Below are positions 254-39,253 of a stretch of 45,911 nucleotides of DNA, piece after piece. Source of the DNA: an uncultured Bacilli bacterium (GTDB taxonomy: Bacteria; Bacillota_I; Bacilli_A; RF39; UBA660); contig CANQXT010000004.1 in NCBI GenBank assembly GCA_947627915.1, forward strand, positions 1-45,911, in the 5' to 3' direction. The position numbers and the translations under genes were made by a program. The notes below the pieces were generated by a model. That model was given only the letters and a program-made list of their open reading frames with translations, was not told where the DNA came from and searched no databases. How positions within the stretch are numbered: position 1 is the first letter of the stretch; each line of letters starts with the position of its first letter.

Positions 254-760
254 TTATATATCTAATTTTTGAATTATTAGTTTTTGAATTAATTTTGCAT
301 ATTTTAATAGTTCTTCATTTTTTACTTTATTATACACAATAACTAATCCACTTGAATCTATGGAAGTTATTATAGGTAACATCACAAAATAACCCATTTT
401 ATCAAACCAATTATCTTCTTTTTCACTTATTAAATTTTCACGATTATCAATTAAATTTGTTAATTTATCACTAAGTTTATAATCCATTAATTTTAAATTA
501 TTTGAATCTGTGGCAATAACTTTTTCACGGTCTGTTATTATGACATCAACTCCACATATTTGACTAAATATCTCACATAAAATAGTACTAATATTTTTTA
601 TATTTTCAACTTGGGAATATTTTTTTATGATAATTGAGTTATCACTAGTATATATTTCTAATGGTTCACCATCTCTTATTCCTAAGTTATATCTTATTTC
701 TTTGGGAACTACAATTCTTCCTAATTCATCAATTCTTCTAGTAATTCCACTTTTAATCAT
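254..760 (-). CDS. spoVT: Stage V sporulation regulator SpoVT
   Basis: A 168-residue protein with an N-terminal AbrB/MazE-type swapped-hairpin DNA-binding domain (residues 1-50, motif RRIDELGRIVVPKEIR) and a C-terminal half of about 110 residues matching the GAF-like domain of SpoVT. Bacillus SpoVT is about 178 residues, so it is full length. The family regulates forespore sigma-G genes during spore maturation. AAGGAG precedes the ATG. It follows mfd in the same direction, as in Bacillus, and ends at a strong terminator. The C-terminal domain separates it from plain AbrB. Together with bofA, ricT and spoIIR it suggests that sporulation is retained. Confidence 0.92.
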   Translation of the reverse strand: MIKSGITRRIDELGRIVVPKEIRYNLGIRDGEPLEIYTSDNSIIIKKYSQVENIKNISTILCEIFSQICGVDVIITDREKVIATDSNNLKLMDYKLSDKLTNLIDNRENLISEKEDNWFDKMGYFVMLPIITSIDSSGLVIVYNKVKNEELLKYAKLIQKLIIQKLDI

Positions 761-10217: not shown

Positions 10218-10249
10218 GATATATTTCGATTATATTATGTCAACCAATT

Positions 10250-10263
10250 ATTTCCCGGGAAAT
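10250..10263. promoter_or_regulatory. Noc-binding site (NBS) 1
   Basis: Exact ATTTCCCGGGAAAT, the Bacillus Noc consensus as I recall it, preceded by TTATGTCAACCAATT. A noc-like gene lies at 27.9 kb. Confidence 0.85.
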
Positions 10264-10301
10264 ATTATTTTTACATTTTCACAGTATTATGTAAACCAAT
10301 T

Positions 10302-10315
10302 ATTTCCCGGAAAAT
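10302..10315. promoter_or_regulatory. Noc-binding site 2, one mismatch
   Basis: ATTTCCCGGAAAAT, one base off the palindrome, preceded by TTATGTAAACCAATT in the same phase as site 1. Confidence 0.75.
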
Positions 10316-10357
10316 AATTTATTTATTTTATTTCAATTAATTTAGCTTTATAATCAA

Positions 10358-10373
10358 TGTTTCACGTGAAACA
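10358..10373. promoter_or_regulatory. parS site 1
   Basis: Perfect palindrome TGTTTCACGTGAAACA, the ParB consensus. The symmetry continues to TCAA...TTGA, 24 bp in all. Confidence 0.92.
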
Positions 10374-10552
10374 TTGATAAAAATAATTAATTAGTTGGTA
10401 GAAAATAATCTAATCTATATAACAATTTTATTTTTTTGCATTAAAGAAAACATTTTTTAATATTTTTGATTTAACTATTAAAAAATTTTAAAATGCAAAA
10501 ATTATTTTTTTATTTTAGTGTATCTACATTTATCATGTTACGTAAATTAATT

Positions 10553-10566
10553 ATTTCCTAGGAATA
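10553..10566. promoter_or_regulatory. Degenerate Noc-like site 3
   Basis: ATTTCCTAGGAATA keeps the TTCC/GGAA arms but has TA at the centre. The flank GTAAATTAATT resembles that of the other sites. May be decayed. Confidence 0.4.
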
Positions 10567-10597
10567 TTTTTTTGATTAACTATTTTAATATAATTAA

Positions 10598-10613
10598 TGT
10601 TTCACGTGAAACA
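10598..10613. promoter_or_regulatory. parS site 2
   Basis: Perfect TGTTTCACGTGAAACA, 32 bp from the degenerate Noc-like site. Confidence 0.92.
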
Positions 10614-10780
10614 TTTAGCATTTACACATTTAAAATTTAAAATTAATTTAAAAATTGTTAAATTAATTCATTATTTTTTTAAAATTAGTAATTATTTAAT
10701 AAAGATATTATAAATGATATAAACAACTAAAATAATAAAACTATGCATTTTATATTTTTAAAACACAATTTTTCAAATAA

Positions 10781-10796
10781 TGTTTCACGTGAAACA
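10781..10796. promoter_or_regulatory. parS site 3 within a 34-bp palindrome
   Basis: TGTTTCACGTGAAACA flanked by TTCAAATAA and its exact complement TTATTTGAA, giving a perfect 34-bp palindrome (10772-10805). Confidence 0.93.
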
Positions 10797-10981
10797 TTAT
10801 TTGAATTAAAACATCAATTATTATAATATTTAATAGTAAAGTTAATTATTATTAAATTTATTTAAATCTATCAAATAAATAATTTATAAATCAATTTTAA
10901 TTCTTATCTTACTAAATAATAGATTTTGTTTATACAATAAGCAGTTTTATAGTTTAAAATTTTAAAATTATTTTATATTAA

Positions 10982-10997
10982 TGTTCCACGTGAAACA
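10982..10997. promoter_or_regulatory. parS site 4 within a ~40-bp palindrome
   Basis: TGTTCCACGTGAAACA, identical to the classical Bacillus parS. The surrounding TTTTATATTAA/TTAATATAAAA arms extend the symmetry to about 40 bp (10970-11009), broken only at the central C. Confidence 0.93.
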
Positions 10998-11042
10998 TTA
11001 ATATAAAATTAAATATAAATATTCATAAATAAGTTTAAATAT

Positions 11043-11077
11043 AAAAAAACAACATTTCATATGAAATATTGTTTTTA
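11043..11077 (-). terminator. Palindrome, possible gyrA terminator
   Basis: ACAATATTTCATATGAAAT pairs with itself between an A run and a T run. In the gyrA direction it reads as an AT-only hairpin followed by T residues. It could equally be a degenerate parS (TTTCATATGAAA against TTTCACGTGAAA). Confidence 0.45.
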
Positions 11078-11104
11078 CATTTTTATATATTATGTAAACC
11101 AATT

Positions 11105-11118
11105 ATTTCCCGGGAAAT
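11105..11118. promoter_or_regulatory. Noc-binding site 4
   Basis: Exact ATTTCCCGGGAAAT inside a 22-bp palindrome (11101-11122), preceded by TTATGTAAACCAATT. Confidence 0.85.
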
Positions 11119-11143
11119 AATTTAATTATTATGTCAACCAAAT

Positions 11144-11157
11144 ATTTCCCGGGAAAT
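11144..11157. promoter_or_regulatory. Noc-binding site 5
   Basis: Exact ATTTCCCGGGAAAT inside a 20-bp palindrome, preceded by TTATGTCAACCAA. It ends five bases from the gyrA stop codon. Confidence 0.85.
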
Positions 11158-11161
11158 ATTT

Positions 11162-13723
11162 TTATTGATTATCTTCGTTTTGAATGTCATTAATTTCTTC
11201 AACTTTATCAACAATACTTACTGTAGCAACAGTTTGATTTTCTCTTAATGAAATCAATCTTAAACCTTGTGTTACACGACCTAAAATAGATATTTGTTCA
11301 ACTGGTAATTTAATAGTTATACCCGCATTAGTCATAATAACAACATCTTTATTATCTTCAACTATTTTAGAAGCAACTAAAGTACCATTCTTTTCTGTAA
11401 TATTTAGTGCTAAAACACCTTTACTTCCTCTTTTTGTTTGACGAAAATCAGCAACTTTTGTTCGTTTTCCGTATCCTTTCTCTGTAACTAATAATAACAT
11501 TGAATCTTCTTCAGTAACTTCACAGCAAATACAATCATTTTCCCCTAAGTTAATACCTCTAACACCGGATGCTGTACGTCCCATTACTCTAACTTCGGAT
11601 TCATCAAATTTTACCATTCTACCATTGTTGCTTCCTAATAATATCATATTATTACCTGAAGTTTTCTTAACAGCAATTAACTCATCATTATTTTTTAAGT
11701 TAATACATATCTTACCTGAGTTTCTAATATTATCAAATTCTTTTATATCAGTACGTTTAACAATACCTTTTTTAGTTGCAAATAATAGATATTTAGCTTC
11801 ATCTTCCTTAGTTACCTTAATTATAGTATTAATTTTTTCTCCTTTTTCAATTTGTAATAAATTAATTGCTGGTAAACCTTTAGATTGTCTACTAAATTCT
11901 GGTATTTCATAACCTTTTAAACGATATACTTTTCCTTTATTAGTAAAGAACATAATATAATCGTGAGTTGAAATATTAATTAAATGAGTTACAAAATCTT
12001 CATCCGTAGTCGTTAATCCTTTTATTCCAACTCCACCACGATTTTGAACTTTAAATGTATCATTCTTCGTTCTCTTAATATATCCTTTATCAGTCATAAT
12101 AATCATAGAATCTTCTTCAGGAATTAATGATTCATCTTCTATATAATCAATAGCAGTCATATCAATAGTTGTTCTTCTTTCATCTCCATATTTATCTTTA
12201 ATTTCTAATAATTCTTTTCTAATTATTTCTAACACTTTTTGTTCAGATGCCAATATTGCTTTTAATTCTTCTATTTCTTTCAATAAGGCATTTAACTCTT
12301 CTTCTATCTTATCTCTTTCTAGACCAGTTAAACGACGTAATTTTAATTCTAATATAGCATCAGCTTGGACTTCAGATAAACTAAAGCGACTAATTAATTT
12401 AGCTTTTGCATCAATATCGTCATCTGCAGTTTTAATAATATTAACAACTTCATCAATATTATCTTGAGCTATCTTATAACCTTCTAAAATATGTACTCTT
12501 TTTTCATCTTTTGCTAAGTCAAAACGAGTTCTTCTAATTATGACTTCTTTTTGATGATCTATATACTTAGAAATTATATCTTTTAAGCCAAGTGTTTTTG
12601 GAGTACCATTATCAAGCATTAAAAATATTATACCATAATTAACTTGGAAAGATGTATGTTTATATAAATTATTTAAAATTATTTGAGGATTAGCATCTCT
12701 TTTTAATGTAATAGTTATTTTTACTCCATCTTTTAAATCAGTATGATAATCTGTTATACCATCAATGATTTTGTCTCTTACTAATTCAGCAACTTTTTCT
12801 TTTAATTCTTGGGTATTAACACCATATGGAACTTCAGTTATAGTAATTATATTATGATTATTATGTTCTTCAATAGTTGCTCTACTTCTAATTGTAATTG
12901 AACCACGACCAGTTTCATATGCTTTTTTTATTCCCGAATTACCTAAAATAATACCACCAGTTGGAAAATCAGGTCCTTTTATATATTGCATAAGTCCTAA
13001 TGTATCAATTTCTGGATTATCAATATAAGCAACACATCCATCAATAACCTCACCTAAATTATGAGGTGGAATATTTGTTGCCATACCAACAGCAATTCCC
13101 ATTGAACCATTTACTAAAATATTTGGAAATCTTGATGGTAATACTTTAGGTTCTTCCAACGTTTCATCATAATTAGGAGTCATATCAACAGTATCTTTGT
13201 TGATATCTTTCAATAACTCTAAGGAAATTTTGGCAAGTCTTGCTTCAGTATAACGATAAGCTGCAGCTCCATCTCCTTCGATATTACCAAAGTTTCCGTG
13301 ACCATCAATAAGCATATATCTTTGATTGAAACTTTGAGCTAATCTAACCATTGCTTCATAAATAGATGAATCACCATGTGGATGATAATGTCCCATAACG
13401 TTACCAACTGTTGTAGCTGATTTTCTATGAGGTTTATCAGGGGTATTACCTTCTTCATACATAGACCATAAAATTCTACGATGAACTGGTTTTAATCCAT
13501 CTCTTAAGTCTGGAATAGCTCTTGAAGTAATTACACTCATTGAATAATCTAGAAAAGAATCTTTTACTTCATCAACAATATTATTTTCTTTGTGTGAATC
13601 TCTTTCGTGAAATTCACCACCATAATTATTTTCTGATTGTTCTTCTAATTCATTTTCTATATTATCAGATTCATTATTAGGACTATCATCATTAATTGTT
13701 TTATTTATTTCTTCATTATCCAT
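11162..13723 (-). CDS. gyrA: DNA gyrase subunit A
   Basis: 853 residues. The breakage-reunion domain has the catalytic tyrosine in AAYRYTEARL and the helix-4 region HPHGDSSIYEAMVRLAQ, with the usual Ser and acidic residue at the quinolone positions. The C-terminal pinwheel has a GyrA-box-like QNRGGVG, slightly off the canonical QRRGGKG. An acidic Asn/Glu-rich extension of about 50 residues precedes the conserved start, which is unusual. GGAGG lies before the ATG. Last gene of the recF-gyrB-gyrA run; it ends against a Noc-type palindrome. Confidence 0.97.
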   Translation of the reverse strand: MDNEEINKTINDDSPNNESDNIENELEEQSENNYGGEFHERDSHKENNIVDEVKDSFLDYSMSVITSRAIPDLRDGLKPVHRRILWSMYEEGNTPDKPHRKSATTVGNVMGHYHPHGDSSIYEAMVRLAQSFNQRYMLIDGHGNFGNIEGDGAAAYRYTEARLAKISLELLKDINKDTVDMTPNYDETLEEPKVLPSRFPNILVNGSMGIAVGMATNIPPHNLGEVIDGCVAYIDNPEIDTLGLMQYIKGPDFPTGGIILGNSGIKKAYETGRGSITIRSRATIEEHNNHNIITITEVPYGVNTQELKEKVAELVRDKIIDGITDYHTDLKDGVKITITLKRDANPQIILNNLYKHTSFQVNYGIIFLMLDNGTPKTLGLKDIISKYIDHQKEVIIRRTRFDLAKDEKRVHILEGYKIAQDNIDEVVNIIKTADDDIDAKAKLISRFSLSEVQADAILELKLRRLTGLERDKIEEELNALLKEIEELKAILASEQKVLEIIRKELLEIKDKYGDERRTTIDMTAIDYIEDESLIPEEDSMIIMTDKGYIKRTKNDTFKVQNRGGVGIKGLTTTDEDFVTHLINISTHDYIMFFTNKGKVYRLKGYEIPEFSRQSKGLPAINLLQIEKGEKINTIIKVTKEDEAKYLLFATKKGIVKRTDIKEFDNIRNSGKICINLKNNDELIAVKKTSGNNMILLGSNNGRMVKFDESEVRVMGRTASGVRGINLGENDCICCEVTEEDSMLLLVTEKGYGKRTKVADFRQTKRGSKGVLALNITEKNGTLVASKIVEDNKDVVIMTNAGITIKLPVEQISILGRVTQGLRLISLRENQTVATVSIVDKVEEINDIQNEDNQ

Positions 13724-13733
13724 TATAAACCTC

Positions 13734-15662
13734 CTAAATATCTAAGTTTTTAACCTTAATAGCATTTTCTTCAATAAATGCTCTTCTTGGTTCTACCTCA
13801 TCACCCATTAATTTTTCAAATATAGCATCAGCTGCAATACAATCACCAACGGTTATTTTTCTTAATGTCCGCTTATTAATATCCATTGTTGTTTCATTTA
13901 ATTCTTCAGCATCCATTTCTCCTAAACCTTTCATACGGGCAATTTCTGCTCTATTTCTAACATTTTCAGGTAAAGATGCTAAATATTCTTCTTTTTCTTG
14001 TTCGTCTAAAACATATTTTCTTGTTTTTCCATGCATTATTCTAAATAATGGAGGTTGAGCAGCATAAACATGGCCAGCTTCCACAATAGGTTTAAAAAAT
14101 CTATAAAATAATGTTAATAATAAAACTCTAATATGAGCACCATCGACATCGGCATCTGTCATTATAATGATTTTATCGTATCTTAATTTAGATAAATCAA
14201 AATATTCGCCAATTCCTGTACCAAATGCTGTAATTATTGTTTTAATTTCTTCATTACCTAAAGCTTTGTCTAAACGTGCTTTTTCAACATTTAAAATTTT
14301 ACCTCTTAAAGGAAGAATAGCTTGTGTCATTGAATCTCTTCCTTCTTTAGCAGAACCACCAGCTGAATCTCCTTCGACTATAAATATTTCAGAAACAGTA
14401 GGATCTTTACTTTTACAATCTGATAATTTACCAAAGAAATTAGTTGTTGCTAAATCACTTTTTCGAGTAGCTTCTCTCGCCTTTTTTGCAGCCATTCTTG
14501 CATCTCTTGCTAATACTGCTTTACCAATAATAATCTTAGCATAATCAGGATTTTCAAGTAAAAATTGTTCAAATCCTTCTGAAAAAACACTATCAGCTAA
14601 ATTTTTAACTTCCGAATTACCTAATCTTCCTTTGGTTTGGCCTTCAAATTGGGGATTTGGATGTTTACAAGAAATAATCATTGTTAATCCTTCTTTAACA
14701 TCATCCTCTTTTAAGTTTTCATCTTTTTCTTTTAATATATTATTTTTTCGAGCATAATTATTAATTACTCTTAATAATGCTCTTTTAACACCATCTTCAT
14801 GAGTACCACCATCGTGAGTATTAATATTATTAACAAAAGAATAAATATTTTCATTATATCCAGTGTTGTATTGCATTGCAACTTCAAAAATAATACCATC
14901 TTTTTCACCATTTAAATGAATTATTTCATCATGAAGTACTGTTTTACCTTGGTTTATAAACTTAACATACTCAGATATACCACCTTCATAAAGGAAAGTT
15001 TCACCAGTTGTATCTTCCATATCCCGATCATCTCTAATAGTAAGTGATAATCCTTTATTTAAAAATGCTAATTCTCTAATTCTTACTTTTAAAGTTTCAT
15101 AATCATAAATATCGGTATCGAATATTTCTGGATCTGGTTTAAATGTTACAGTTGTACCTGTTCTATTTTCTTCACAAGTACCAATTTCTGTTAACTTTTG
15201 AACAGTTTTTCCACCATTTGCAAATTTAGTTTCATATATTTTAGAATTTTTATAAACTGTTACAGTTACCCATTTGGATAAAGCATTAACAACGGAAGCA
15301 CCAACTCCGTGAAGTCCACCACTTACTTTGTAGCCACCTCCACCAAATTTTCCTCCAGCATGTAAAACAGTATATACAGTCTCTACTGTTGATACCCCTG
15401 TTTTTGGATGAATACCAACGGGAATACCACGACCATTATCTCTAACTGTTATTGAATTATCTTTATTTATAATAACTTCTATATGATTACAAAAACCTGC
15501 TAAAGCTTCATCTATCGCATTATCTACGATTTCCCAAACTAAATGATGAAGACCTTTAACATCAGTTGTACCAATATACATCCCTGGTCTTTTTCTTACT
15601 GCTTCTAATCCTTCTAAGACTTGAATATCATCTTCATTATAATGTAAATTTTTATCATCCAT
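13734..15662 (-). CDS. gyrB: DNA gyrase subunit B
   Basis: 642 residues from ATG 15662. The track's GTG at 15671 lies within the ribosome-binding site AAGGGTGAGG. GHKL ATPase ([35 protein letters not shown]), then Toprim ([22 protein letters not shown], and DADVDGAHI for metals) and the C-terminal [21 protein letters not shown] points to GyrB rather than ParE. With GyrA it supercoils DNA using ATP. Adjacent to recF and gyrA as in many Firmicutes. Confidence 0.97.
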
Positions 15663-16847: not shown

Positions 16848-16876
16848 ATTATAACATAAATACACTATTTTTTAAA
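16848..16876 (-). promoter_or_regulatory. Promoter for recF-gyrB-gyrA
   Basis: TATAAT preceded by TTTAAA at 17 nt on the minus strand; the -35 overlaps the end of the comK-like gene. Leaves a leader of about 60 nt before recF. Confidence 0.5.
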
Positions 16877-17315
16877 GAAATTTTACATTATTTTTAATAT
16901 TTAATTTATTTATTAATTTTAAATAATTTAATAAACTTTTTTCAAAACTATATTTAGAAATATCAACATAAAATTCATTATTTAGACAAGTTATTTTTAA
17001 CTTATCATTAACAACTTCATAATTTAATATTTTATTACCTACTAATAATAAACATTCTTTGCATCTTAAATTATGAATTGGAATTAAAATAATATTTTTA
17101 TCAATAATAATAGGAACTTTATATTTTATATTTAATAATTTTTTAGCAAATTTTTTTCTTCCTTCTAAATTACTTCCATATAATAAACATATATTTTCTA
17201 ATAGATTATTAATTTTTTTGTTGAAAACTACCATCTTTTCAACATCATAAATATATATTTTATTATTTTTCTTTAATAATGCTACTGTACTACTATTAAT
17301 TATACAATTATCCAT
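16872..17315 (-). CDS. ComK-like transcription factor
   Basis: 147 residues resembling ComK, the competence master regulator of Bacillus: an N-terminal segment, then YGSNLEGRKKFAKKLLNIKYKVPI (matching ComK's YG-S-EGRK...T-KPI pattern), ILIPIHNLRCKECLLL, and a C-terminal beta/helix region. ComK of Bacillus is about 190 residues, so this is a compact version. It has its own promoter and AGGAGG site and sits between dnaN and recF, an unusual place for comK. It could control DNA uptake or another regulon. No com genes are visible in this window. Confidence 0.75.
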   Translation of the reverse strand: MDNCIINSSTVALLKKNNKIYIYDVEKMVVFNKKINNLLENICLLYGSNLEGRKKFAKKLLNIKYKVPIIIDKNIILIPIHNLRCKECLLLVGNKILNYEVVNDKLKITCLNNEFYVDISKYSFEKSLLNYLKLINKLNIKNNVKFL

Positions 17316-17343
17316 ATTTCCTCCTGAAATTGGTTAATATTAT

Positions 17344-17371
17344 ATTCTATTAATAGCTAATATTTTGTCGA
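17344..17371 (-). promoter_or_regulatory. Promoter for the comK-like gene
   Basis: TCGACA (-35) and TAGAAT (-10), 16 nt apart, lie between the dnaN terminator and the gene. Confidence 0.5.
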
Positions 17372-17386
17372 AAAAAGAAAGTTATT

Positions 17387-17414
17387 AAAAAAAGTTAGCA
17401 TTTTACTAACTTTT
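17387..17414 (-). terminator. Terminator after dnaN
   Basis: AAAAGTTAG pairs with CTAACTTTT around a 7-nt loop and is followed by seven T residues on the minus strand. It begins at the dnaN stop codon. Confidence 0.85.
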
Positions 17415-18531
17415 AATAAGTTTTTACTGGTAATATTAGTTCAATTAATGATTCATCTTTAACTGATTTTATTAATATTGGTTTATCATCACTATTTATA
17501 AGTAATAATATACTATCATCTTTAATTACTTTTAATGCCTCTAACATATAACGAGAACTAAAAGCAATTTCTAATTTTTCTTTATTACTACAATCGATTG
17601 ATAATTTTTCTTCGGTTTTACCTATTTCACTAGAAGAAGATGACATTATCATTACTTTATTATCGATTAAAACTCGAACTATATTTTTATCTTTGTTAAC
17701 TGCAAGTAATGAAGCTCTATCAACTGCATCATTAAATGCTTTTAAATCTAAATTAATCATATAGGCAAATTCATTAGGAATAAAGTTACTTGTATCAGGA
17801 TAAGTTCCACTTAATAAATTAGTTTGAAATTCAATATTTTTATATTTAAATAATATTTTATTATTAAAGATATGCATTACAACATCTTCATCAGAATCAA
17901 TTATTTTTTCAAGTTCTGTAATACTTTTACCAGGAATTACAATATTAATAGCAGTATTAACAACATTATCTAGTTTTATATTTTTCTTAGCTAAACGATA
18001 TGAATCAGTAGCAATACATTCTAATAAATCACCATTTATTTTTAAATTTATTCCTGTTAATAAGGGTCTTACTTCTTGGGTAGATACAGCATAACTAGTT
18101 TCATTAATTATATTCTTTAAAACATCTGCTTTAATAATTATTGGTTCTTTACTTTCTTCTAAAGTTAAATTTGGATAATCATTTATATCATAACAATTTA
18201 AACTATATTCATTATTATCAGTATATATTTTTAATTTACTTGTTTCTTCAGCTTCAAATGTTATTATATCAGATGGCATTTTTCTTACTATATCTAATAT
18301 ATATTTACTTTGAATTATTAAACATCCTTTATTTTCAATTTTTTTAATTTCTTTTTCTGGAATACTTACTCTAATAGTTAATTCTGAATCACTAGCAAGT
18401 AAACTTAATCCTTCATCATTTAAATCAATCTTAATTCCATTTAATATTGGAATTGTTGTTCTTGTTCCTATTGCTCTACATACGTTAGTTAGAGCTTCTA
18501 ATAAAATATTTTTATCAATAACAAATTTCAT
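17413..18531 (-). CDS. dnaN: DNA polymerase III sliding clamp (beta subunit)
   Basis: 372 residues, three repeated clamp domains. Recognisable segments include CRAIGTRTTIPILNGIKI near the start, RPLLTGINL at the second domain, SGTYPDTSNFIP before the third, and the C-terminal LILPVKTY. It encircles DNA and tethers the polymerase. AGAAGGAAG precedes the ATG. It follows dnaA at 123 bp, as in nearly all Firmicutes. Confidence 0.97.
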   Translation of the reverse strand: MKFVIDKNILLEALTNVCRAIGTRTTIPILNGIKIDLNDEGLSLLASDSELTIRVSIPEKEIKKIENKGCLIIQSKYILDIVRKMPSDIITFEAEETSKLKIYTDNNEYSLNCYDINDYPNLTLEESKEPIIIKADVLKNIINETSYAVSTQEVRPLLTGINLKINGDLLECIATDSYRLAKKNIKLDNVVNTAINIVIPGKSITELEKIIDSDEDVVMHIFNNKILFKYKNIEFQTNLLSGTYPDTSNFIPNEFAYMINLDLKAFNDAVDRASLLAVNKDKNIVRVLIDNKVMIMSSSSSEIGKTEEKLSIDCSNKEKLEIAFSSRYMLEALKVIKDDSILLLINSDDKPILIKSVKDESLIELILPVKTY

Positions 18532-27851: not shown

Positions 27852-28838
27852 ATGATAAGTGTGAAGAATGAATCACAAGTTTTAAATTTACCAATTGAGG
27901 ATATTATACCCAATCGTTTTCAACCACGCTTAAATTTTGATGATAACGGTTTAAAAGAGTTAGCAGCGTCAATTAAAGAGCATGGCATAATTCAACCATT
28001 AGTAGTTAGAAAAATTGGCGAAAAGTATGAAATAATTGCAGGTGAAAGAAGATATAAAGCATCTAAAATGGCAGGTCTTAGTGAAATTCCTGCTATTGTA
28101 ACGCAAATGGATGATAAGAAAAGTGCTGAAGCTGCTATTATAGAAAATATTCAAAGAAAAGATTTATCAGCAATTGAGGAAGCAAAATCTTATGAAGCTC
28201 TTTTAGATAAAGGATATACTACACAAGATAAATTAGCCCAACAAATGGGTTTAAGTCAATCAGCAATATCTAATAAATTGAGACTCTTATCTTTATCCGA
28301 TAATGTTCAAAAAGCTTTAATGGAATCTAAAATATCTGAAAGACATGCTCGAAGTTTATTACAATTAAAAACACATGAGGAACAAGATGAATGGTTAAAA
28401 ATAATTATCGATGAAAGATTAACTGTTAAAGAACTTGATGAAAGACTTAAAGGTAATAAAAAGAAAGAAGATGATTCTTTGTTAAATTTAAATAAAAATA
28501 ATGATAGTAGTGATAAACCAGGTATTAATTTAGTCTTTGATGAAAAACCAATACCTAATAAATTCTTTAATTTTTTAGAAGATGAAGAAGCTAATATGAC
28601 TATGACTGAGAAAACAGATGTTACCGATACACCAACTAATGAATTTAAAATGGAATCTAATGATGATGTCGAAATGTTAGATTTTGTTCCAGCTATACCT
28701 AAAAAAGATATGACAATTGCTATTGAATTAGTAGAAAAATTAAAAAATGATTTAAAAGCAAATAATTTTCAAGTATCTGTTTTAGAAGATAATAGTGATG
28801 ATGAATTAAAATATAAAATAATCATAAGTAAAAATTAA
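27852..28838 (+). CDS. noc: Noc-type nucleoid occlusion protein (ParB family)
   Basis: 328 residues. ParB/Noc N-terminal CTP-binding domain with GERRYKA and ENIQRKDL, then a helix-turn-helix. At the positions I recall as separating Noc from ParB it has Gln136, Lys142, Ser147 and Arg164 (Noc: Gln, Lys, Lys, Arg; ParB: Arg, Thr, Ala, Gly), so three of four are Noc type. Its place after rsmG and the ERHARSL motif agree. It should bind the CCCGGG palindromes at 10-11 kb. Differences: the N-terminal amphipathic membrane helix of Bacillus Noc is missing, and an acidic C-terminal tail of about 120 residues is added. soj/spo0J do not follow. Confidence 0.88.
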   Translation: MISVKNESQVLNLPIEDIIPNRFQPRLNFDDNGLKELAASIKEHGIIQPLVVRKIGEKYEIIAGERRYKASKMAGLSEIPAIVTQMDDKKSAEAAIIENIQRKDLSAIEEAKSYEALLDKGYTTQDKLAQQMGLSQSAISNKLRLLSLSDNVQKALMESKISERHARSLLQLKTHEEQDEWLKIIIDERLTVKELDERLKGNKKKEDDSLLNLNKNNDSSDKPGINLVFDEKPIPNKFFNFLEDEEANMTMTEKTDVTDTPTNEFKMESNDDVEMLDFVPAIPKKDMTIAIELVEKLKNDLKANNFQVSVLEDNSDDELKYKIIISKN

Positions 28839-35924: not shown

Positions 35925-37196
35925 ATGAAAAGTATTAACAAAAAAATAATAGTAACTATATTAGTAATCATAGAGATAATGTTAATAAATATAACATATA
36001 AATCATATAGTAATCGAATAATAGATGAAAAAGAAATAGAAAATAAAAGAGTAGCTATAAAAGTAGATAATGGAAATAATGAATATAAAGATAGTGAAAC
36101 ATTACCTGGAAGAGGATATGTATTAAATACAGAATTAACAGAATGTTTAGATATAGAAGGAAATAAAATAGAAAATATAAAATTAGATAGTAATGGAGAA
36201 AATATAACCATAACAGGAAGATATACAAGTTATTGTACAATATATTATTATTTACCAGAAAATAGAGAATATGACTATATAGGAGATTATCAAGTATTTA
36301 TAGCTCCAAAAGAAGGTAATTATAAAATAGAATTATGGGGAGCAAGTGGTGGTGGTGTTAATGGTGGAAAAGGAGCATATACGAAAGGAACAATTCGTTT
36401 AAATCAAAATGATAAATTGTATATTTATGTAGGTCAAATCGGAACATATAAAGCTTGGGCCTTTAATGGAGGTGGCCCAGGAGAATCAAATGGAGGAGGA
36501 GCAACTGATGTAAGATTAAATATATCTAATACTGGTAATTGGGATGATTTTGATTCCTTAAAATCCAGAATAATGGTTGCCTCAGGTGGAGGCGGAGGTA
36601 CAAATAATTCAAATATAGATTATACTAAATCCTACCAAAGAGGAGATGGAGGTACTTTATCAGGAATAGATGCAAGATTTTGTGCAGAATATCTTATTAA
36701 TGTACCATGCTCATATGATTTTAGTGGTCACGGAGGTTCTCAAACATCTGGTGGAAAACAAGGAGAAAAATTTAATAATGTTGTTGATCCATATGAAACA
36801 ATAGAAATGACTGGAAAATTTGGTAAAGGAGGATATGCTAGAAATTCACTTAATTTTGAATATACATCATCTGGTGGAGGAGGAGGTTACTATGGTGGTG
36901 GTCACGGAAATCATCCAGGTAATTCATGGACTGGTGGAGGCGGAGGTTCATCATATATCTCTGGTCACGAAGGTTGTGTAGCAATAAAAGAAGAATCAAC
37001 TGAAGAAAATGTTCAACCAAAAGATGGATGTACAGATGGAACAAAAGATATAAATTGCTCATACCATTATAGTAACAAAATATTTACAGAAACAGAAATG
37101 AAAGCAGGAAACGAAGAAATGCCAACTCATAGTGGTGATGGAAATATGACAGGTAATACTGGAAATGGTTATGCTAAAATAACATTTGTTAATTAA
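35925..37196 (+). CDS. Membrane-anchored glycine-rich surface protein
   Basis: 423 residues. An N-terminal membrane anchor (about 8-26) without a lipobox, then a two-cysteine module (LPGRGYVLN ... ECLDIEGNKI ... SYCTIYYY, about 57-110). A long glycine-rich domain follows: YKIELWGASGGGVNGGKGAY, LYIYVGQ, GGGATDVRL, RIMVASGGGGG and two more Gly clusters. That order resembles the glycine-rich domain of ALK/LTK receptor kinases and related bacterial proteins. Probably exposed outside the cell; ligand unknown. Expression is likely ON/OFF through the upstream G8 promoter. The ribosome-binding site is unclear (AAGGG is 14 nt away). Confidence 0.85.
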   Translation: MKSINKKIIVTILVIIEIMLINITYKSYSNRIIDEKEIENKRVAIKVDNGNNEYKDSETLPGRGYVLNTELTECLDIEGNKIENIKLDSNGENITITGRYTSYCTIYYYLPENREYDYIGDYQVFIAPKEGNYKIELWGASGGGVNGGKGAYTKGTIRLNQNDKLYIYVGQIGTYKAWAFNGGGPGESNGGGATDVRLNISNTGNWDDFDSLKSRIMVASGGGGGTNNSNIDYTKSYQRGDGGTLSGIDARFCAEYLINVPCSYDFSGHGGSQTSGGKQGEKFNNVVDPYETIEMTGKFGKGGYARNSLNFEYTSSGGGGGYYGGGHGNHPGNSWTGGGGGSSYISGHEGCVAIKEESTEENVQPKDGCTDGTKDINCSYHYSNKIFTETEMKAGNEEMPTHSGDGNMTGNTGNGYAKITFVN

Positions 37197-37711: not shown

Positions 37712-38686
37712 ATGAAGAAGATAATTATAGGAGTACTAGTAATAATAGAAATATTTTCTTTATATATGATGTATCAAAGTAATGAAACCAAAAAATTAAA
37801 TGAAGTAAATATAAAAGATAATAAAATAAATAAAAATACTTTTGCCATATATTGGGATGAAAAAGGAACTGGAACATATACAGAATATACTGAAGAATTA
37901 TTGCCTAGTGAAGGTTATCATTTAAATTATTATAAATCAGAATGTTTAGATGTTGAAGGCAATAAAATAGCAAATACAATAAATTATAATAATGGAAATA
38001 TAACATTAAATAGTAAATATACTAGTTATTGTACTTTATATTATGATATGGAAACATATTTTGAAGATTTAAGTGGTAATAATAGAGGTATATCTATAGA
38101 TAAAGATAATGTTACAATAACTGATGAAGGTATAAGTATAAATACAGATGAGATAGAAACTAATATTTCACCACAAGAATTAAGTAATACATTTTCAGTT
38201 GTAACTAGATTTAAAATAAATGATTCTTTGGATGTTTCTAGTTATGAAGCAGTACTTTATCATGGAATATATAGAAGTAATTCTACTGTTTCTTCTGATT
38301 ATGAAAGTCATCATCAACTTACAATTGTATACTACGATAATATATGCCATATATATACAGAATTTGGTATTGGTGATGGGCATATAAATTGTTATGGAAA
38401 TAATATAGAAAAAAATGTATTTTATACAATTACAATAGTCTATGATAATGGAACAATAAAATTTTATAACAATGGTAATTTAGAAAATACAACTAATATG
38501 AATCAAAAATGGATAATTCCAATAGATAATTATAAATTAGGTTCTTTAAATACATTCTCAGATTTCTTAATCTATAATAGAGTACTAACAGATGAAGAAA
38601 TAAAAGATAATTTTTCTAATACCATAGATTTGTATAAAATTAATAAACAAGATTTAGCTGTATTTTATAAATTTTCAAATTTTTAA
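37712..38686 (+). CDS. Membrane-anchored LamG-like surface protein
   Basis: 324 residues. An N-terminal anchor (about 3-20), a two-cysteine module (LPSEGYHLN ... ECLDVEGNKI ... SYCTLYYD) closely matching the one in the glycine-rich protein, then a concanavalin/LamG-type lectin fold (about 110-315): FSVVTRFKI, ITIVYDNGTIKFYNNG and the family ending FLIYNRVLTDEEIKDNF. Probably binds carbohydrate or host protein outside the cell. AAAGGG lies 7 nt before the ATG. Driven by the right G8 promoter. Related to its neighbour only in the anchor and the two-cysteine module, not in the binding domain. Confidence 0.85.
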   Translation: MKKIIIGVLVIIEIFSLYMMYQSNETKKLNEVNIKDNKINKNTFAIYWDEKGTGTYTEYTEELLPSEGYHLNYYKSECLDVEGNKIANTINYNNGNITLNSKYTSYCTLYYDMETYFEDLSGNNRGISIDKDNVTITDEGISINTDEIETNISPQELSNTFSVVTRFKINDSLDVSSYEAVLYHGIYRSNSTVSSDYESHHQLTIVYYDNICHIYTEFGIGDGHINCYGNNIEKNVFYTITIVYDNGTIKFYNNGNLENTTNMNQKWIIPIDNYKLGSLNTFSDFLIYNRVLTDEEIKDNFSNTIDLYKINKQDLAVFYKFSNF

Positions 38687-38743
38687 ATTCTCTTTCTTGT
38701 ATAAAATTATTATTATTAAAACAATATATACTTGGTGATAAGT

Positions 38744-39253
38744 ATGAAAAAAATAATAATAATTTTATTTTTTATTGTTGTTGGATTAGTATTAGTTAAT
38801 GAAAAAGAAAATATATTAATACCTGATAATGCTATAAGATTTAGAATAATAGCTAATAGTAATTCTAATGAAGATCAAGAATTAAAAAGAACAATAAAAA
38901 AAGATGTTGAAAAAGAACTATTTACTTTATTAAAAGATGTTAATAATATTAATGATGCTAGAGAAGTTATAAATAATAATCTTAATAAAATTGATAATAT
39001 TGTTAAGAGTTATAATGTTTCTTATGATATTAATTATGGTAATAATTATTTTCCTTCTAAAGAATATAAAGGAGTAACTTATGATGAAGGTAATTATGAA
39101 AGTTTAGTAATAAAATTAGGTAGTGGTTTAGGAGATAATTGGTGGTGTGTTTTATTTCCTCCATTATGTTTATTAGATGAACAAAATAATCTTAATAATT
39201 ATGAATATGAATTTTATACTAATAAAATTATTAATAAATTTATAAATAAATAA
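38744..39253 (+). CDS. spoIIR: Stage II sporulation protein R
   Basis: 169 residues from ATG 38744, with GGTGAT 4 nt upstream; the track's TTG at 38732 precedes that site. Signal anchor, then IRFRIIANSNSNEDQELK and FPSKEYKGVTYDEGNYE, and the family end motif NWWCVLFPPLC. In Bacillus it is made in the forespore under sigma-F and triggers SpoIIGA to process pro-sigma-E. It normally lies close to prfA-prmC; here the island separates them. Confidence 0.93.
   Translation: MKKIIIILFFIVVGLVLVNEKENILIPDNAIRFRIIANSNSNEDQELKRTIKKDVEKELFTLLKDVNNINDAREVINNNLNKIDNIVKSYNVSYDINYGNNYFPSKEYKGVTYDEGNYESLVIKLGSGLGDNWWCVLFPPLCLLDEQNNLNNYEYEFYTNKIINKFINK

Follow-up and report, generated by a model that had tools for sequence, protein, structure and literature searches.

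A ComK relative between dnaN and recF, behind a promoter that looks Spo0A-controlled, in an uncultured RF39 bacterium

The dnaN-comK-recF locus

The window (the whole stretch of DNA analysed, 45,911 nucleotides) comes from a genome assembly of 1.29 Mb that is 92% complete. Near the replication origin it carries a small gene, comK, flanked by dnaN and recF on the same strand, which bears out the placement given in a preliminary description of this DNA. The features of the locus are as follows, those of the promoter region being read from the sequence.

17413-18531, minus strand: dnaN, the upstream neighbour of comK
17390-17414, minus strand: inverted repeat AAAAGTTAG...CTAACTTTT followed by a T run, the likely dnaN terminator
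17366-17372, minus strand: predicted Spo0A (0A) box TTCGACA (TGTCGAA on the plus strand; core motif, PMC3485338)
17339-17344, minus strand: -10 element TATAAT, 21 bp from the 0A box
17320-17325, minus strand: AGGAGG, the ribosome-binding site of comK
16872-17315, minus strand: comK, 147 aa, ATG start, single copy in this genome
15687-16781, minus strand: recF, the downstream neighbour of comK

The preliminary description had called the product ComK-like, and the profile search upholds this. The protein matches the ComK family (Pfam PF06338) with an E-value of 2.4e-15 and 57 bits, against a curated cut-off of 22.3, over positions 2-148 of a 152-position profile, and it is the sole match in the genome. 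The segment 16872-17315 on the minus strand is thereby confirmed as a real ORF encoding a full-length relative of ComK, the master switch of DNA uptake in Bacillus. The form found in this genus is a diverged one, with scores of about 49 to 80 bits, as against 90 to 167 in most cases for other genera. A sequence search of the PDB with ComK found no relative. The AlphaFold2 model of the product (mean pLDDT 89.9) shows a weak likeness to LytTR DNA-binding domains (best E-value 6.5e-3), which is only a hint that the protein may bind DNA.

The usual occupant of the gap between dnaN and recF is yaaA, a small S4-domain gene, and it was said to be missing here. Indeed, neither this genome nor its 36 congeners holds a proper match to the corresponding profile (S4_2, PF13275), the weak partial matches being confined to S4 proteins of about 240 aa; YaaA was found in 20 of 23 other members of the class. 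A single ComK is present in 33 of the 36 congeners. In all 27 congener loci with ComK that were fetched, dnaN precedes comK, and recF follows it in 26, the contig ending in the remaining one; in a few congeners, extra sequence lies between dnaN and comK. Across the order, 139 of the 146 genomes have a ComK match, as do 74 of the 75 genera, every match falling within one family. When 45 loci of this family were inspected, one per genome, dnaN was upstream in 43 and recF downstream in 42. Starting from DnaN instead, ComK was found downstream in 49 of 52 named Bacilli dnaN loci of GTDB genomes. The dnaN-comK-recF arrangement is family-wide and not a local oddity, and the exchange of YaaA for ComK is therefore old. 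None of the papers searched links RF39 to ComK; the sporulation gene set of RF39 has been described (PMC10868615).

A promoter with the grammar of a Spo0A target

Behind dnaN, the inverted repeat and T run are followed by TTCGACA, then by exactly 21 bp and TATAAT. The heptamer is the window's only copy outside coding ORFs, and its reverse complement TGTCGAA is the core of the Spo0A box (PMC3485338). The inverted repeat has too little G+C to pass the terminator scan, and a simple sigma-70 scan of the AT-rich dnaN-comK region gave no excess over shuffled sequences; the promoter of its own that comK had been credited with is accepted here because the element is conserved across species. It is kept at fixed spacing in 28 aligned loci of the genus, most commonly with an extended -10, TGnTATAGT, and with the box replaced in a few loci by TTTGACA or one further variant.

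This spacing extends beyond comK. In the 37 genomes of the genus, TTCGACAA combined with TATART gave 57 matches at 21 bp, whereas the remaining spacings averaged 2.1, these counts coming from related genomes rather than from independent samples. There were 27 matches at 31 bp, and in many of these a second box follows after another 10 bp. In 1.17 Mb of the window's genome, non-coding TTCGACA at 21 bp from TATAAT or TATAGT occurs at four sites, before comK, spoIIP, cse60 and a sirA-like gene, the product of which aligns over its full length with a score under the Pfam cut-off. The spo0A gene, too, has a 0A box upstream. The Spo0A protein of this genome scores 215 bits with TIGR02875, for which the equivalog cut-off is 200, and Spo0A matches were found in 33 of 36 congeners. 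In congeners, promoters with the 21-bp spacing or with tandem boxes are also seen at other loci (L198, L201, L202, L211, L212, L213), before genes that resemble DUF1016/YhcG nucleases and a restriction endonuclease of the MvaI/BcnI family.

In the other genera, 39 of the 60 dnaN-comK gaps contain TCGACA, where shuffled sequences gave 0.6, and none of 54 comK-recF gaps does; about one third of the dnaN-comK gaps are without an exact copy. Pairs of boxes are exactly 10 bp (27 pairs) or 20 bp (24 pairs) apart, against 1.3 expected in all, and comK promoters of these genera carry tandem boxes at the 10-bp interval. The distance from box to extended -10 is 11, 21 or 31 bp (14, 15 and 14 cases, respectively), with about 0.02 expected for each. 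The comK promoter thus looks Spo0A-controlled, a feature newly noticed here. Because this promoter carries a Spo0A box, sporulation control is the better-supported link for comK, in preference to the link between replication and DNA uptake suggested previously.

DNA-uptake genes and the sigma-H-like factor

Uptake genes had been proposed as a check on the ComK reading, and several are present: comEA, comEC, a PilB-type ATPase gene, pilC, a prepilin peptidase gene and several pilin genes with N-methylation motifs. ComEC passes its equivalog cut-off and occurs in 34 of the 37 genomes of the genus. DprA, ComFA and ComFC were not found by a simple motif search covering 91% of the genome, which is weak negative evidence, and the rnhB-topA stretch holds no dprA-like gene. 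A 374-aa match to T2SSE at C26 of this genome was considered as a candidate ComGA and rejected, as it resembles part of a VirB11/TadA-like operon. An operon at L092 (3844-7919) encodes a VirB11/TadA-like ATPase and TadB/TadC-like membrane proteins, as named from their sequences.

Paired AT boxes, likewise proposed as a check, showed no enrichment at the uptake genes. When AAAA-N5-TTTT pairs 8, 18 or 31 bp apart were counted against shuffled sequences in 20 to 24 congeners, such Bacillus-type pairs were not above the shuffles at comEA, pilB or pilC. At comK itself, where such boxes could serve positive autoregulation, single boxes numbered 11 versus 5.7 expected and pairs 1 versus 1.9. The single-box excess is even larger at the recF control, so that it probably reflects AT-richness or terminators. 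Because the pairs are not enriched, a ComK regulon of the B. subtilis type cannot be assumed.

The genome encodes a sigma factor that aligns over its full length to spore_sigH (TIGR02859) with 82 bits. This is far under the equivalog cut-off of 294.8, and for that reason we name it only sigma-H-like. Its gene directly follows an rlmB-like gene for a putative rRNA methyltransferase. A putative sigma-H-like promoter element, AGGAAAT-N14/15-GAAT, is conserved before comEA-comEC; in the window's genome it is degenerate and precedes comEA, a peptide exporter gene, dnaG and a surface-protein gene. In congeners the element stands before recA (G016), before peptide exporters that are C39 ABC transporters (G001, G014, G031) and, in several of them, before surface-protein and nuclease genes. 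Within the set of sigma-H-like promoters (L248-L267), a small double-glycine peptide (L261) follows one exporter, the nucleases are of the PD-(D/E)XK type, and one surface protein has a weak match to LPXTG-anchored pilins.

How comK may be controlled, and what it may control

The B. subtilis genes spoIIG and spoIIE are activated by Spo0A from promoters in which a 0A box replaces the -35 element, about 21-22 bp from the -10. The comK promoter described here has a similar box and spacing, the target being comK. In B. subtilis, phosphorylated Spo0A binds the comK promoter directly, first activating and later repressing it (PMC3297582). The two systems share the protein family and the presence of Spo0A sites, here predicted, in the comK promoter; in B. 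subtilis one such site overlaps the -35 (PMC3297582). They differ in that comK lies here between dnaN and recF and encodes a protein of about 150 aa, in the perfect 0A box at 21 bp, replaced in other genera by tandem boxes with a 10-bp interval, and in the paired ComK AT boxes, which were not found here. Staphylococcus aureus, where SigH and ComK control competence (PMC3486894, PMC10182052), has in common with these bacteria a sigma-H-like factor and ComK, with uptake genes behind sigma-H-like promoters. However, S. aureus does not sporulate and possesses a second ComK (PMC12491500), whereas a single ComK with a Spo0A-type promoter is present here.

We consider it probable that, in this genome-reduced family bearing sporulation genes, a single-copy ComK replaced YaaA, has its own Spo0A-activated promoter and regulates part of a competence or stationary-phase programme. 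According to this model, the replacement between dnaN and recF would have taken place before the family diversified. comK would be transcribed from its own sigma-A-type promoter with an extended -10, in which one or more 0A boxes stand in for the -35. Phosphorylated Spo0A bound at these boxes would most likely switch comK on as growth slows, and ComK would then probably bind DNA and regulate part of the programme. The comEA-comEC operon would apparently have a sigma-H-like promoter working in parallel. Several observations weigh against the model: the dnaN-comK gaps of other genera without an exact TCGACA, the nuclease and restriction genes, which are not sporulation genes, behind this type of promoter in congeners, the lack of AT-box enrichment, the failure to find DprA by motif search in 91% of the genome, and the low score of the sigma factor.

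It could be argued that TTCGACA is no more than the -35 of a sigma-A promoter, ordinary or unusual, and that comK escapes Spo0A control. The arrangement TCGACA-16-TAGAAT does fit a sigma-A promoter in this species, and the congeners with TTTGACA in place of the box would suit that reading, but the conserved -10, at 21 bp, exceeds the normal sigma-A spacer, tandem boxes in other genera are phased at exactly 10 bp, and the same element is found at spo0A and before sporulation genes; we hold this reading to be unlikely. The regulator itself might have been rewired, such that a Spo0A-controlled ComK governs sporulation or other stationary-phase genes instead of DNA uptake. The lack of AT-box enrichment at uptake genes, the apparently sigma-H-like control of comEA-comEC and the failure of the motif search to find DprA point that way. 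Nevertheless, the wide conservation of ComEC, together with a pilus ATPase, PilC, prepilin peptidase and pilins, argues against it, and the binding motif of ComK could have diverged, so that rewiring seems somewhat improbable, though less so than a plain -35.

The position of comK is a separate question. The gene might have moved into the dnaN-recF gap by chance, its place being meaningless and the order being kept through inertia of the replication cluster. Gene order at replication origins is generally conserved, and the extra sequence that parts dnaN from comK in a few congeners is in keeping with such a relocation, which nonetheless leaves the conserved promoter unexplained; as far as the place itself is concerned, none of our results tells against it, and we give it only slightly less than an even chance. 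The preliminary description had offered another explanation, namely that a location at the origin raises comK dosage when replication restarts, thereby coupling replication to DNA uptake. Conservation of this location in nearly all loci speaks for the idea, but a regulated promoter would normally be expected to outweigh a two-fold change in dosage, and among the explanations weighed here we find it the hardest to credit.

On the model of a Spo0A-activated comK, a wider circuit can be tentatively drawn for the whole family, and we think it rather less likely than not. Spo0A would act on the origin-linked comK, and the sigma-H-like factor would drive the uptake genes and a peptide exporter gene, with recA added in some species, competence being an ancestral and retained part of entry into sporulation. 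To our knowledge, the control of competence and sporulation is known almost solely from a few cultured Bacilli. If the model holds, a family that has retained ComK, Spo0A and uptake genes in genomes of about 1 Mb would reveal which components of the B. subtilis decision circuit are old and cannot be dispensed with, and DNA uptake would be predicted in uncultured gut bacteria. The promoter grammar, for its part, can be read across dozens of genera.

Noc-binding sites and other features of the window

The palindrome TATTTCCCGGGAAATA was considered as a comK operator and rejected, being identical to the Noc-binding consensus (PMC7383237). In 12 of 28 loci of the genus (L006, L007, L012-L014, L016, L017, L021, L022, L024, L026 and L031), a perfect copy immediately precedes the comK 0A box; it is absent at comK in the window's genome. 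Because these 12 loci carry such a site, Noc may touch the comK promoter in the species concerned. In the window, an intergenic cluster beside gyrA (10249-11158) holds four parS sites, three of them perfect (TGTTTCACGTGAAACA) and one mismatched, and four Noc-binding sites, again three perfect and one mismatched; no other parS or Noc-binding sites were found in 1.17 Mb of this genome. A noc-like gene (27852-28838, plus strand) scores below its cut-off.

Two further genes of the window are named by likeness only, both scoring below their equivalog cut-offs: a SpoVT-like gene (254-760, minus strand) and a SpoIIR-like gene (38732-39253, plus strand). Finally, the proteins encoded at 35925-37196 and 37712-38686, and at 12730-14019 of another locus (L093), are apparently paralogous: their N-termini are alike, two of them having MKKIIIGVLVIIEIFSLYMMYQ, or they contain stretches rich in glycine.
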